Both the position numbers and the translations under genes were made by a program. Below the pieces are notes generated by a model, which was given only the letters and a program-made list of their open reading frames with translations, did not search any database and was not told the origin of the DNA. This document shows, piece by piece, positions 6,870 to 12,456 of a DNA stretch of 43,497 bases. Location: contig WAQC01000032.1 of assembly GCA_015520425.1 (NCBI GenBank), positions 1 to 43,497 on the forward strand. The letters run 5' to 3'. The DNA comes from Candidatus Pelearchaeum sp. (GTDB taxonomy: Archaea; Thermoproteota; Nitrososphaeria_A; Caldarchaeales; Caldarchaeaceae). Within the stretch, counting starts at the first letter, position 1. Each line of letters begins with the position of its first letter.

Positions 6870-9101
6870 TTGGAGGCTATGTACAAAATGCATAGCATTC
6901 GGGTGAGAGTCCTAGCATCGGTTATAGCCGCGTTGGTGGTTATGGTTGGTTTCCTTCCCTTTCAGCCTGCCTGGGCTGAGGATGAGCAGCTCCAAACACC
7001 CCTAGCCCAGCCTCTCCTCAAGCCTATTGAGGAGCTATTATCTGGGGGCGCTTTAAATAGGATACAGTTCTTCAGGGGAGACGATAGCTGGATTAGGGTG
7101 GGAGAGCAGTCGGCCGAGCCTGCGGGGGGAGCTAGGCCCTCGCAGCCCCTCGTATCAATACCCTACCGCTCACCGACAGCAAAGTTCAGCAGAAATGTCA
7201 TTCTAACATACGACCTAGGCGCAATACCATACCAAAACGAGCCGACAGTAGCGGTTAACCCACTAGACCCAGACCACGTGGTAGTGGGCGCTCACGACTA
7301 CGACACCCCGTGTGTGGTTTCCTATGTATCGTTTGACGGTGGGGAGACATGGCGCGGCCCGTTCCACGCAGACCTAGCCGTTGAAGACAGCTTCTGCTCA
7401 GACCCCGTTCTAGCGTTTGACCGCGATGGTAATGTGTATTATGCCTACCTATCAATAGGGACACGCCCACTGAGGGTTGGTCAGCTTCTGCTAGTAGCTG
7501 AGGTAAGCAGCGCTGTAGTATCAATCTCCCGCGACGGCGGGATAACGTGGGAAGGCCCATACATAGCATCAACAGGAATAGTAGAGCAAGGCCAGAACTC
7601 AGCCAGCATAACGTTCATAGACAAAATCTGGATGAACGTGGGCCCAGACCCATTCAACCCTGAGAGAGATAACATATACGTAACCTATACAGAGTTCAGG
7701 CTCATATACCCATTCCTAGACCAATACCCGTTCGTAGCGGCGCCAATCATTGAGGTCTCAATAAAGCTGGTCGTCTCCTATGATGGTGGGAAGACTTGGA
7801 CCAGGCCAGTCGCGGTCAGCCCAGTCTATAGATACCCTGCTGGTGAGCTTGATAGGCCAATAGTACAAGGTTCTAACATTGCGGTGGCCAAGGATGGGAC
7901 GTTATACATAGCGTATTATGACTCTATGTCCGACGGCCCATTTAAGGGCCTCTTCTCACCCTATGTGACGGTTTCCTACGATGGTGGCAGGAGCTTTGAG
8001 GGGCCTTATGCGGTGGTTCCAGGAGGGACGTGGGAGCAGGACTTCTTCCTAAAACCAACGTACTTCCGTTCATGGTCTTCCATGTTCCCCTTCATCGCAG
8101 TATCACCCAACAACAGCAAGGAGGTCTACATAGTTTTTGGAGCTTTAGGCGAGGCTGGTGGAGATAGGTCCGACGTATATTTCTCCAAATCAACTGACGG
8201 TGGGAAGACTTGGAGAGAGCCTAAACGCGTAAATGATGACTTGACGCTACGTAACCAGTTCTTCCCAACTTTAACCGTCTCGCCCAACGGGACCATACAT
8301 ATAATATGGGGCGATATGCGCGACGACCCAAACAACTATCGCTACCACATCTACTATACCAAGTCTGGTGATGGTGGGGAGACGTTTATGGAGAACTCCC
8401 GCGTCTCGGATTATCCCTCAAACCCTGGACGCGGGATTCCCATATTCATAGGCGACTACTTTGGAATAGCGGCCACGAATGAGGATGTGTATATTGTTTG
8501 GACTGACAGTAGGTCTGGGGAGGTTGGTGGGAGAAATCAGGACATCGCGTTTGCTCGTTTAAGAGCGATACCAAAGCCTTCAATAACATTAAGCCCGCCT
8601 GAGGGGCCTGCGGGCCAGACGATAACTATAATGGGGTTCAACTTCGCCCCAAGGCAGAGGGAGGTGTTTATTGAGGTTGATGGTGTGGTCATCTCCTCAG
8701 TACCAACAGATGACAGCGGCCGTTTTGTGGCGCAGATATTCATGCCCGTCTCTGGGGAGGGGGCGCATACCATACGCGCAATAGATGTGCTTGGAAACGT
8801 GGCTACAGCAAACTACTACTCTACCTTCGGCTTCAACACAATAGAAGACAGGATAGATTCCGTCATCAAGGAAATGGCTGGAAAACTAGAATCCATAAAA
8901 CCAGATAACCCACAAGCAGCTAACATTACTGTGTCAAAGATTGTTGATGAGGTTGTGAAGCGTATAGAGCCGTTGCTTGCCTCTCGTCAGGAGCCGCGAG
9001 ACTCTGGTATAACGCCAGCGTTTATAATATCCATCGCTGCCATGGTTATAGCTTTGGCCGCGCTTTTCATCGCTACGACGCGAGGTAGGAGCAGGTCATG
9101 A
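6870..9101 (+). CDS. Cell-surface Asp-box (BNR) beta-propeller protein, sialidase-like fold
   Basis: 743 residues. It has an N-terminal signal peptide (hydrophobic core about residues 12-32, cleavage near PAWAEDE). Six Asp-box repeats of the form S-x-D-G-G-x-T-W are visible (SFDGGETW, SRDGGITW, SYDGGKTW, SYDGGRSF, STDGGKTW, SGDGGETF), as in six-bladed sialidase-type propellers. A separate Ig/IPT-like beta domain follows (about 570-660, SPPEGPAGQTITIMGFNF), then a helix and a C-terminal membrane anchor (about 718-738). I could not recognise the arginine triad of true sialidases, so enzymatic activity is doubtful; it may be a binding scaffold or another glycosidase. The start could be any of three in-frame Met codons at 6870, 6879 or 6888. 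Its stop overlaps the next start (ATGA), so the two genes are translationally coupled. Confidence 0.8.
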   Translation: MEAMYKMHSIRVRVLASVIAALVVMVGFLPFQPAWAEDEQLQTPLAQPLLKPIEELLSGGALNRIQFFRGDDSWIRVGEQSAEPAGGARPSQPLVSIPYRSPTAKFSRNVILTYDLGAIPYQNEPTVAVNPLDPDHVVVGAHDYDTPCVVSYVSFDGGETWRGPFHADLAVEDSFCSDPVLAFDRDGNVYYAYLSIGTRPLRVGQLLLVAEVSSAVVSISRDGGITWEGPYIASTGIVEQGQNSASITFIDKIWMNVGPDPFNPERDNIYVTYTEFRLIYPFLDQYPFVAAPIIEVSIKLVVSYDGGKTWTRPVAVSPVYRYPAGELDRPIVQGSNIAVAKDGTLYIAYYDSMSDGPFKGLFSPYVTVSYDGGRSFEGPYAVVPGGTWEQDFFLKPTYFRSWSSMFPFIAVSPNNSKEVYIVFGALGEAGGDRSDVYFSKSTDGGKTWREPKRVNDDLTLRNQFFPTLTVSPNGTIHIIWGDMRDDPNNYRYHIYYTKSGDGGETFMENSRVSDYPSNPGRGIPIFIGDYFGIAATNEDVYIVWTDSRSGEVGGRNQDIAFARLRAIPKPSITLSPPEGPAGQTITIMGFNFAPRQREVFIEVDGVVISSVPTDDSGRFVAQIFMPVSGEGAHTIRAIDVLGNVATANYYSTFGFNTIEDRIDSVIKEMAGKLESIKPDNPQAANITVSKIVDEVVKRIEPLLASRQEPRDSGITPAFIISIAAMVIALAALFIATTRGRSRS

Positions 9102-11653
9102 AGAGGATTTTGCAGGTAACTACGGCTATACTTCTGCTACTCCTACTATATCCCGTCTATGCGCAGGAATACAAGCCTCCCCACGACAATCCTGGCCCTG
9201 CGGTTGATGTTGTTAAGTTTAACGCCTTCGCGGAGGAGATAGCTCCCGCCGCGATAGAGCGCGGGGATGTGGATATTTATCTCTACAGTATGCGGGTCTC
9301 TCGCGTAATCCCACTTGAGCAGAGCCCCGACCTTAGGATAATCCGAGCTCCGTCGCTCTCGCTCTCAATACTCCTAAACCCAGCCCCATCAACAGAGAAG
9401 GAGTTTAACCCATTCTCAATACCAGAAGTAAGGCAGGCAGTCCAATACCTAATCAACCGCGATTACGTGGCTAGGGAGATATACAAAGGCAAGGCAGTCC
9501 CAATGGTTGCGCACATAAGCCCATTTGAGTATGATTATGTAACCATCTTTAACGTGGTGAAAGATTCGGGGATAAGATACGACCCTGAGCTTGCCAAGAG
9601 GATGATAAGCGACGCCTTAACCGCTGTTGGCGCCGTTATGCGGGATGGAAAGTGGTACTATAACGACAATCCTATTAGGGTTAAGTTTGTGATAAGAACC
9701 GAGGATGAGCGCCGCGAGATAGGTGACAGCCTCGCGGCCGAGCTTGAGAAGATAGGGTTTGAGGTTGAGCGCATCTACCACAGGTTCGCCGAGGCAATAC
9801 TGCGGGTTTACACGACAGACCCAGCCGAGTTCCAGTGGCATCTATACACCGAGGGCTGGGGGAAGGGCGCTCTAGAGAAATATGACTTCGGGACGATAAA
9901 CCAGATGTGCGCACCCTGGCTGGGCAACATGCCTGGATGGCGGGAGGTGGGGTACTGGCAATACGAGAACCCAGCGCTTGATGATATGGGCCAGAGGCTC
10001 TTTAAAGGAGAGTTCAGCAGCAAAGAAGAACGTGATAGACTCTATAGAGACATGACAAAGCTCTGCATTGAGGAGTCTGTAAGAATATGGGTTGCAACCG
10101 TCTTGACGAGCACGCCTATAGATAAGGACATGCAGGGGGTAACAGAGGACCTGGGTGCTGGCGCGCGTTCCTTATGGCTGCTCCGCGCGGCGTATCTACC
10201 TGGAAAGAACGAGCTTAAGGTAGGGCATCTCTGGGTATGGACACCCCGCACCGTCTGGAACCCTATCGGAGGATTTAACGACGTATACAGCGTAGATATC
10301 TGGCGGAACATCTACGACCCGCCTATAACGCGCCACCCATTCACAGGAATACCAATCCCCTTCAGAGCCGACTTCAAGGTGGAGACAGCAGGCCCAGACG
10401 GGAAGCTAGACGTACCAGGCGACGCCGTAATGTGGGACGCAGAGTCAAAGACATGGAAACCCGTAGAGGCTGGAACCAAGGCGGTGAGCAAAGTAACCTT
10501 TGACTATAGCAAGTACGTAAACGCGAAGTGGCATCATGGAATCAAGATAAGCATGGCGGATATACTGTATAGGATATACCAGATATTTGATATTGTTAAT
10601 GACCCGCTTAAGTCTAAGATAGAGTTTGCCCTAGCAGCTACTACGAAGCCTATACTTGAAACGTTTAAGGGATTTAGGGTGGTTGACGATTCTACGCTGG
10701 AGGTTTATGTTGATTTCTGGCATTTTGAGGAGAGCTACATAGCAGAGTACGCTGAGTTCTTCGGCGGGGCCATGCCTTGGGAGGTCTTAGCAGCGATGGA
10801 TGATGTGGTCTTCAACAAGAAGCTACTCATGTACAGCGACACTTCCGCTGCTAGATTTGGAGTGGAGCAGCTAAGCCTAGTTCTACGCGAGCATGCAACG
10901 CTGGTCAAGCGTTCTCTCACGGAGTTTCTAAGAGAAAAGACCTTCCCAGAAAACGTATTCACAGTAATGGGCAAGAAGTACGAGACGTTAGATGACGCTC
11001 TGAAGAGATACAACGCTGCGATAGAATGGTTTAACGAGCGCAGGCACATGGTAATAAGTAATGGCCCCTTCATGCTGAGCGTTTTTGACCCAGCAGCCCA
11101 GTATGCCGAGCTCCGCGCCTATAGAGACCCATCCTACCCATTCAAGCCAGGAAGCTGGTATTTCGGGAGCCCAGAAAGGGTTGAGGTGAGCCTGCTTGAG
11201 GACCAGATAAAGCTTGGAGACACGCCGACCATAGCTATTGAGGCACGAGGACCAGGCACCCTACGTGCTAAATACGTATTGCGGGACCCAGCGAGCGGCG
11301 AAGTGATGGCGGAGGGAGTTGTTGAGCTTAGGGCTGGTAGGCAAGACCTTAGGCTCGCAGCTCAAAACCTTAGGCCAGGCTTCTACCAGCTTAGCCTACT
11401 CCTCTTCAGCGAGGATATCTCGCTGGTTCAGGAGATAGAGGAGACGGTGGAAGCTGTGATACCGATGATGGAGGAGACTACAACGACGACAACCGAAGTG
11501 GCTTCGCCGACATTAACTCAAACAACTACAGCCGCTACTACGGCTGCGGTTGAAGGAGAGGGCGGAGTGCAGCTTACGTGGATAATCGCGGTGGTAGTGG
11601 TCGCGATAGCCGCTGTGGCTGCTGTCGTTATGCTGCGGAGACGTAGGGCTTAG
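9098..11653 (+). CDS. Membrane-anchored extracellular solute-binding protein (family 5-like), halves apparently permuted
   Basis: 851 residues. It has a signal peptide (1-22) and, at the end, a Thr-rich stalk (TTTTTTEVASPTLTQ) plus a transmembrane anchor (about 825-845), as in archaeal substrate-binding proteins. The middle resembles DppA/OppA-type binding proteins, but the order is unusual. The segment equivalent to the second lobe (VDVVKFNAF, GDVDIYL, then EVRQAVQYLINRDYVAREIY at 110-129) comes first. The segment equivalent to the N-terminal lobe (KWHHGIKISMADILYRIYQI near 477, and ISNGPFMLSVF near 653) comes after it. No permease or ATPase genes accompany it. It overlaps the propeller gene by ATGA. 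Its last 4 bases overlap the convergent coiled-coil gene. Confidence 0.78.
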   Translation: MKRILQVTTAILLLLLLYPVYAQEYKPPHDNPGPAVDVVKFNAFAEEIAPAAIERGDVDIYLYSMRVSRVIPLEQSPDLRIIRAPSLSLSILLNPAPSTEKEFNPFSIPEVRQAVQYLINRDYVAREIYKGKAVPMVAHISPFEYDYVTIFNVVKDSGIRYDPELAKRMISDALTAVGAVMRDGKWYYNDNPIRVKFVIRTEDERREIGDSLAAELEKIGFEVERIYHRFAEAILRVYTTDPAEFQWHLYTEGWGKGALEKYDFGTINQMCAPWLGNMPGWREVGYWQYENPALDDMGQRLFKGEFSSKEERDRLYRDMTKLCIEESVRIWVATVLTSTPIDKDMQGVTEDLGAGARSLWLLRAAYLPGKNELKVGHLWVWTPRTVWNPIGGFNDVYSVDIWRNIYDPPITRHPFTGIPIPFRADFKVETAGPDGKLDVPGDAVMWDAESKTWKPVEAGTKAVSKVTFDYSKYVNAKWHHGIKISMADILYRIYQIFDIVNDPLKSKIEFALAATTKPILETFKGFRVVDDSTLEVYVDFWHFEESYIAEYAEFFGGAMPWEVLAAMDDVVFNKKLLMYSDTSAARFGVEQLSLVLREHATLVKRSLTEFLREKTFPENVFTVMGKKYETLDDALKRYNAAIEWFNERRHMVISNGPFMLSVFDPAAQYAELRAYRDPSYPFKPGSWYFGSPERVEVSLLEDQIKLGDTPTIAIEARGPGTLRAKYVLRDPASGEVMAEGVVELRAGRQDLRLAAQNLRPGFYQLSLLLFSEDISLVQEIEETVEAVIPMMEETTTTTTEVASPTLTQTTTAATTAAVEGEGGVQLTWIIAVVVVAIAAVAAVVMLRRRRA

Positions 11654-12456
11654 TCTTTGATGGCTTTAGACAGCTCATCTATGTGGCTGATAACCACCAG
11701 ATAGACCTCCTCAATAAATTGATTTGCCTTCTGACTGTATTCATCCACCCCTGGCGGCTGTGAGAAGAGCCACTCGCAGAAAACGCGCAGGTTGTATGGA
11801 GCGTCTGGTCTTGAGAGGGTCCAGCTACAAAGGTCGCCCAACGGCCCCTGCTCATACGTCACATCTTGTGGGAATGACTCTATCCAGTCAAAGAACACGC
11901 CCAGAGAGGCGATTATCTTATCTACCGCTATGGCTAGTGAGGGGTCGCTTCTCGCAGCTATGTCGCGGGTTTCATTCCAGTGTCTTAGGGCTCCCTCGCG
12001 GTCGCTGGGGACATCGTTTCTCAGCCAGCTCAGTAGGACGCGGTCGTTGGATAGCTTCTCCAACGCGTTACTTATCCTGGCTATCTTAGCCTCTAGCTCT
12101 TTTACGCGGGAGTCCGACTCACCTAACTGCGTTTTAAGCTGAGCTAGCTCAGCCTCCTTCTCCTCCAGTACCTGCCTAGCCTCCTTCTCCGCCTGCTCAA
12201 CCTTGCTGAGAAGAGCCTTCAAGCTCTCCAGCTCTGAAGACAGGCTACTAACCTTATTCCTCTCCTCAACCAGCTGCTCGTTGAGGTTCGCTATCTCACC
12301 ATCCCTATCCCGTATCTGCTCTTCCAGCGATTTTATCACCTGCTGCTGCATCAAGTATGCTGATATGAATCCTCCAACGAAGAAGGTTATTGCTATGACT
12401 GCGGCTAGCGAGATTAGGATGAGCCTCTTCATGCGGCTAACACTGCCCTTTACCAC
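11650..12456 (-). CDS. Membrane-anchored coiled-coil protein of unknown function
   Basis: 268 residues from GTG at 12456; an in-frame ATG at 12432 (MKRLILISLAAV) is an equally good start. One transmembrane segment near the N-terminus (about 12-32) is followed by about 100 residues of strong heptad-like coiled coil (EEQIRDRDGEIANLNEQLVE and on). A Trp-rich helical C-terminal domain follows (SWLRNDVP, HWNETRD, FFDWIESFP, CEWLFSQPP). I recognise no catalytic motif. It shares a 4-base overlapping stop with the binding-protein gene, and its surface or membrane location suggests it belongs with that block, but this is inferred only from proximity. Confidence 0.6.
   Translation of the reverse strand: MVKGSVSRMKRLILISLAAVIAITFFVGGFISAYLMQQQVIKSLEEQIRDRDGEIANLNEQLVEERNKVSSLSSELESLKALLSKVEQAEKEARQVLEEKEAELAQLKTQLGESDSRVKELEAKIARISNALEKLSNDRVLLSWLRNDVPSDREGALRHWNETRDIAARSDPSLAIAVDKIIASLGVFFDWIESFPQDVTYEQGPLGDLCSWTLSRPDAPYNLRVFCEWLFSQPPGVDEYSQKANQFIEEVYLVVISHIDELSKAIKD

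Follow-up and report, generated by a model that had tools for sequence, protein, structure and literature searches.

A membrane-anchored OppA/DppA-type binding protein of archaea and bacteria carries its two family halves in swapped order

The protein encoded at 9098-11653 on the plus strand of the window, by which we mean the whole 43,497-nucleotide stretch of Candidatus Pelearchaeum sp. DNA that was analysed, carries the C-terminal half (C-half) of its family first and the N-terminal half (N-half) second, and this arrangement is not due to chance. It almost certainly has the family-5 (cluster C) fold in genuinely circularly permuted form and belongs, as the membrane-anchored binding protein, to an ABC importer of the Dpp/Opp type. 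The gene, the parts of the protein and the gene preceding it are as follows.

9098-11653, plus strand: solute-binding protein gene, 851 aa, family-5 (OppA/DppA-type)
9098..9163, plus strand: signal peptide, residues 1-22 (sequence; hydrophobic helix in the model)
9203..10189, plus strand: family C-half, residues 36-364, equivalent to DppA 204-507 (Pfam, phmmer, structure comparison)
10190..10210, plus strand: fusion joint of the old C and N termini, residues 365-371 (...AAYLPGKNELKVGHLW...)
10208..11170, plus strand: family N-half, residues 371-691, equivalent to DppA 1-210 (phmmer, structure comparison)
11171..11467, plus strand: Ig-like beta domain, residues 692-790 (beta strands in the model)
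11468..11578, plus strand: Thr-rich disordered stalk, residues 791-827 (sequence; pLDDT < 50 over 793-828)
11579..11647, plus strand: C-terminal transmembrane (TM) helix with an RRRR tail, residues 828-850 (sequence; helix 828-850 in the model)
6870..9101, plus strand: upstream gene encoding a BNR/Asp-box beta-propeller with a weak TIG match and a TM anchor

The C-half contains lobe I segment Ia2, the entire lobe II and lobe I segment Ia3, whereas the N-half contains lobe I segments Ia1 and Ib, which bear the KWHHG and SNGPF motifs. The joint between them was placed by aligning 35 permuted homologues and by inspecting the termini of native-order proteins. Native-order relatives end ...GLGSIWALNTAYV and begin ...SITLVEFSSTGGLFMSPWNPVLGF, whereas the permuted window protein reads ...GAGARSLWLLRAAYLPGKNELKVGHLWVWTPRTVWNPIGGF. 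The Ig-like domain (residues 692-790) has no match in Pfam. As assessed by profile, it is present in 97 of 106 permuted and none of three native-order sequences examined, a count in which loci overlap in part and the 7fi3 fragment used ends short of its C terminus. The start ATG of the binding-protein gene shares bases with the stop codon of the upstream gene (ATGA). A converging gene on the minus strand (11650-12456), which encodes a membrane-anchored coiled-coil protein, adjoins the binding-protein gene.

The initial annotation had proposed a circular permutation from the order of three motifs, and their positions were confirmed, with VRQAVQYLINRDYV at residues 111-124, KWHHG at 477-481 and SNGPF at 654-658. 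The proposal itself finds support in the sequence, in structure prediction and in many homologues. Among solved structures, both halves are closest to Thermococcus kodakarensis OppA (TkOppA; 7fi3, pentapeptide-bound), which has 29 and 23% identity to the two halves over the structural alignments and shares the motifs YTEGW and DGKWYxN, but is in native order, N-half then C-half. When compared to 7fi3 by phmmer, the window protein aligns in two pieces in swapped order, residues 46-282 with 333-596 (E 1e-26) and residues 386-676 with 22-304 (E 5e-16). Rotation of the sequence, the check that had been suggested, merged these pieces: residues 366-690 followed by 35-365 give a single alignment of 21-573 to 22-596 of 7fi3 (E 5e-47). 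In a scan of 21 rotation points, the score levelled off at 161.8 bits when the new start lay at residues 285-385, compared with 96.0 bits for the unrotated core. Similarly, Pfam PF00496 (SBP_bac_5) matches the unrotated protein in two stretches totaling 81.7 bits, the best of which covers profile positions 143-355, and the rotated protein in one stretch covering positions 26-355 with 90.5 bits. Both scores exceed the curated cut-off of 32.4 bits. We found neither a continuous native-order match nor tandem degenerate copies, the two outcomes against which the annotation had set its proposal. NCBIfam yielded only matches to Opp4A/NikA-type models, far under cut-off, and no curated NCBIfam model therefore describes the permuted type. 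Order-dependent annotation and structure searches see half of such a protein: Pfam, Foldseek and the search of solved structures each aligned one half, or the halves apart.

The swapped order is widespread. The same genus has a homologue with 95% identity over the full length, and relatives down to ~30% identity mostly have one uninterrupted frame. In our collection of genome contigs, the same order is found in 47 loci, a few of which are interrupted by a contig end or frame break, from archaea (Pelearchaeum, Nitrosocaldus and others) and bacteria (Chloroflexota, Calidithermus [Deinococcota], Spirochaetes, Poribacteria, and Aerophobetes). The C-half precedes the N-half in 106 of the 109 sequences that have both, some of these loci overlapping. 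When the phylum of the window was searched with 7fi3, a native-order query that should favour native genes, there were 50 permuted genes (in 47 genomes) vs. two native ones among the pairs listed. The rotated window protein matches 100 of the 151 genomes in our sample of this phylum, and 15 of 151 genomes in the Chloroflexota sample have a near-full-length colinear match. The permuted form is the prevailing OppA relative across the sampled archaeal phylum, and it occurs together with its operon in several bacterial phyla. A plasmid collection returned a single weak match, to an ordinary-looking binding protein in Thermomicrobium.

Structure prediction is consistent with one complete fold built from the two pieces. 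The AlphaFold2 model of the full chain, made with the 35 permuted homologues, has a pLDDT of 90.1 and a pTM of 0.86, and the N-half modeled alone (residues 366-700) has a pLDDT of 93.3. Fits to DppA, NikA and 7fi3 were made half by half, using for the N-half its own model. Residues 29-369 of the full-chain model fit 7fi3 335-754 (Z 27.1, rmsd 2.4 Å, 336 residues aligned), Escherichia coli DppA 204-507 (Z 21.3) and NikA 184-501 (Z 23.0). The N-half model fits 7fi3 from residue 34 (Z 32.6, rmsd 2.7 Å, 303 residues aligned), DppA 1-210 (Z 9.9) and NikA 2-190 (Z about 10). Judging from these models, the two pieces would jointly cover the family fold once, with a cut near DppA 204-210, and the complementary fits to all three proteins point to a bilobed cluster C fold with the extra domain Ib. 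The cluster C chain order is Ia1-Ib-Ia2-II-Ia3, whereas the order here is Ia2-II-Ia3-Ia1-Ib. Because the family chain order is not preserved, we place the protein in a permuted subclass with homology to family 5, rather than among the standard members.

The published lobe limits of cluster C proteins indicate what the permutation has changed. In these proteins, Ia1, Ib, Ia2, and Ia3 together form lobe I, and the chain passes through lobe II on its way from Ia2 to Ia3 (PMC8519434, PMC10924461). In SapA, domain Ia spans residues 35:68, 230:312 and 532:561, Ib 69:229 and II 313:531 (PMC8519434); in YejA, lobe 1 spans residues 1-286 and 540-579, lobe 2 287-539, and the hinges 282-287 and 540-542 (PMC10924461). 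The cut in the window protein maps to DppA ~204-210, which is the Ib/Ia2 boundary within lobe I. Both hinge crossings are therefore preserved and lobe II is uninterrupted. This does not bear out the idea in the initial annotation that the two hinge crossings are rewired, since the published limits put both inside the intact C-half. What has changed is the connectivity of lobe I and the attachment point of the stalk. The latter was correctly anticipated: in two native-order archaeal relatives, L141 and L142, the Thr-rich stalk and TM anchor follow the C-half, whereas here they follow the N-half via the Ig-like domain.

Like E. coli DppA, OppA and NikA (family 5, cluster C), the window protein has the same fold, in two pieces, and the Pfam SBP_bac_5 match, and its relatives are accompanied by Dpp-type permeases and ATPases. 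Unlike them, it is cut at DppA ~204-210 with the old termini fused, and it has an Ig-like domain, a C-terminal TM anchor and a DppC partner whose permease domain is preceded by ~200 extra residues. The native-order L141 and L142, which belong to the same clan, have both halves, a Thr-rich stalk and TM helix, DppB, a long DppC, and two ATPases, but they lack the Ig-like domain and their stalk exits the C-half. Among large proteins that move, few natural circular permutants have been documented. Among ABC binding proteins, the literature searched contains one earlier permuted case, from another structural cluster: Treponema pallidum TpMglB-2 (Tp0684), a membrane-tethered cluster B glucose-binding protein proposed as "type Ic / cluster Bc", which binds its ligand and changes conformation, closing upon it (PMC4990184). 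It differs by its sugar-binding cluster B fold, by a different cut and by needing a fourth lobe crossing, whereas the hinge crossings are unchanged here. The window protein is thus permuted, but its sequence and fold match cluster C and not the TpMglB-2 type. Our search of the open-access literature turned up no description of a permuted binding protein of family 5.

Could the swapped order have another explanation? Two tandem degenerate family-5 copies, each missing a different half, are a likely evolutionary route to such a protein, and possible strand-like remnants are present at both ends (VDVVKFNAF at the start and PERVEVSLL at the end). As a description of the present protein, however, this is refuted. 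The halves match complementary parts of the family (profile positions 143-355 vs. 29-152, the latter for the N-half of a paralogue), and they are therefore not a tandem pair of decayed copies. Moreover, the C-half is preceded by just ~35 residues (the signal peptide), what comes after the N-half is an unrelated Ig-like domain, and both halves form one compact predicted fold (pTM 0.86), so that we regard this explanation as very improbable. It is just as hard to believe that the N-half came from another gene and grew to resemble the missing part by convergence. This has been floated for TpMglB-2, whose moved segment has little sequence similarity to its native counterpart (PMC4990184), but here both halves match 7fi3 significantly, and trees built separately for each half give the same main groups, including the neighbours L141, L142, L145, and L146. 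Finally, the assembly is fragmented (149 contigs), which raises the question of a chimeric contig, a rearranged read or a gene-calling error. Against this, dozens of independent genomes, among them one-contig genomes and named Calidithermus strains, encode the same order in a single open frame, usually with DppB/DppC and ATPases alongside, and there is therefore virtually no chance that it is an artefact.

A circularly permuted binding protein thus remains by far the best explanation, and its chain runs from the signal peptide through Ia2, lobe II, Ia3, Ia1, and Ib to the Ig-like domain, the Thr-rich stalk and the TM helix. The old C and N termini, which are neighbours in the parent fold, are now linked by a few residues, and the new termini are located in the Ib-Ia2 loop. 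The old termini could be joined because the N and C termini of cluster C proteins are near each other (PMC10924461). With lobe II and the two hinge strands unbroken, the Venus flytrap should still work: the ligand would close the cleft and be passed to DppB/DppC by a protein whose tether leaves lobe I at a new position. The permuted proteins very probably work like OppA, and the ligand is probably a peptide or peptide-like compound, because the homologue 7fi3 binds a peptide. Glu252 (E252) of YTEGW might, at a guess, be the counterpart of the Asp that binds the peptide amine (OppA D419, DppA D436).

The gene neighbourhood of the relatives is that of Dpp/Opp importers. Their operons encode DppB, DppC and one or two ATPases with oligo_HPY, and DppB is downstream of the permuted gene in 37 of 47 loci, which is the linkage expected of the family. 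No permease gene lies beside the binding-protein gene in the window. The same genome has a closely similar DppB/DppC pair on another contig (C115), a putative partner that is likely to be the permease of the window protein. In a one-contig genome of the same family (L122), DppB/DppC are encoded ~1 kb past the binding protein on the opposite strand. The DppC of this clan has ~200 extra residues ahead of the permease domain, with no Pfam match (L143:6955-8406, on contig C115 of the window's own genome; L067:11367-12938; L141:11118-12626), whereas other DppC homologues in the same genomes match the permease domain only. We rejected the idea that this DppC ectodomain co-evolved with the permutation, as the native-order L141 and L142 have the ectodomain as well, in DppC proteins of 503-506 aa. 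Of 47 named relatives, both archaeal and bacterial, 41 have a BNR beta-propeller gene with a TM anchor immediately upstream (L035-L038, L040-L065, L067-L071, L074, L076, L077, L079-L081, and L122), and the product of this gene is possibly a ligand-capturing partner of the importer.

The native-order genes L141:7173-9863 (genome G089) and L142:7464-10157 (genome G156) have permuted genes, namely L145, L146 and L169-L172, as their nearest relatives. Trees of the C-half, the N-half and both combined join these sequences with full or near-full support. An AU test rejected the separation of all permuted from the three native sequences (p 0.0002 with the halves joined), with p values of 0.003 for a focused set and 0.026 for the N-half alone. 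Independently of the trees, an insertion after LNP(V/A) and before FNPF (NVYDP...-like) is common to L141/L142 and L145/L146/L169, whereas TkOppA and the main permuted clade lack it. We therefore lean towards the view that the order switched at least two times at the same site, by two independent permutations or by one and a reversal; we hold this with reserve because the tree root is not fixed and TkOppA is a long branch. Rooting with ordinary family-5 proteins was abandoned, as they attached inside the permuted group with weak support on long branches, and the direction of change is therefore not fixed by the tree. L141 and L142, which are rare in being native-order, are candidates for a reversal or for the ancestral form. 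Being sisters of permuted genes from other families, they allow a matched-pair comparison of how chain order affects folding, flytrap closure and membrane tethering.

Most likely, a native-order OppA-type gene with a C-terminal anchor would have been duplicated in tandem and its copies fused in frame, and loss of the outer halves would then have left the permuted form. More clearly than in the window protein, L145/L172 keep a strand-like segment at either end (PVTEI at the start vs. LVVPQLVDI at the end), and this doubled strand would fit an origin by tandem duplication and trimming. No fused N-C-N-C intermediate was seen among the homologues. The genome of the window encodes two more divergent permuted binding proteins, L117 (G000:C91; a frame of 922 aa) and L118 (G000:C87; 889 aa), the latter on a very long branch. 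L152 (G051:C84), with a C-half-like match from residue 62 of a 705-aa frame, is possibly a further divergent permuted form.
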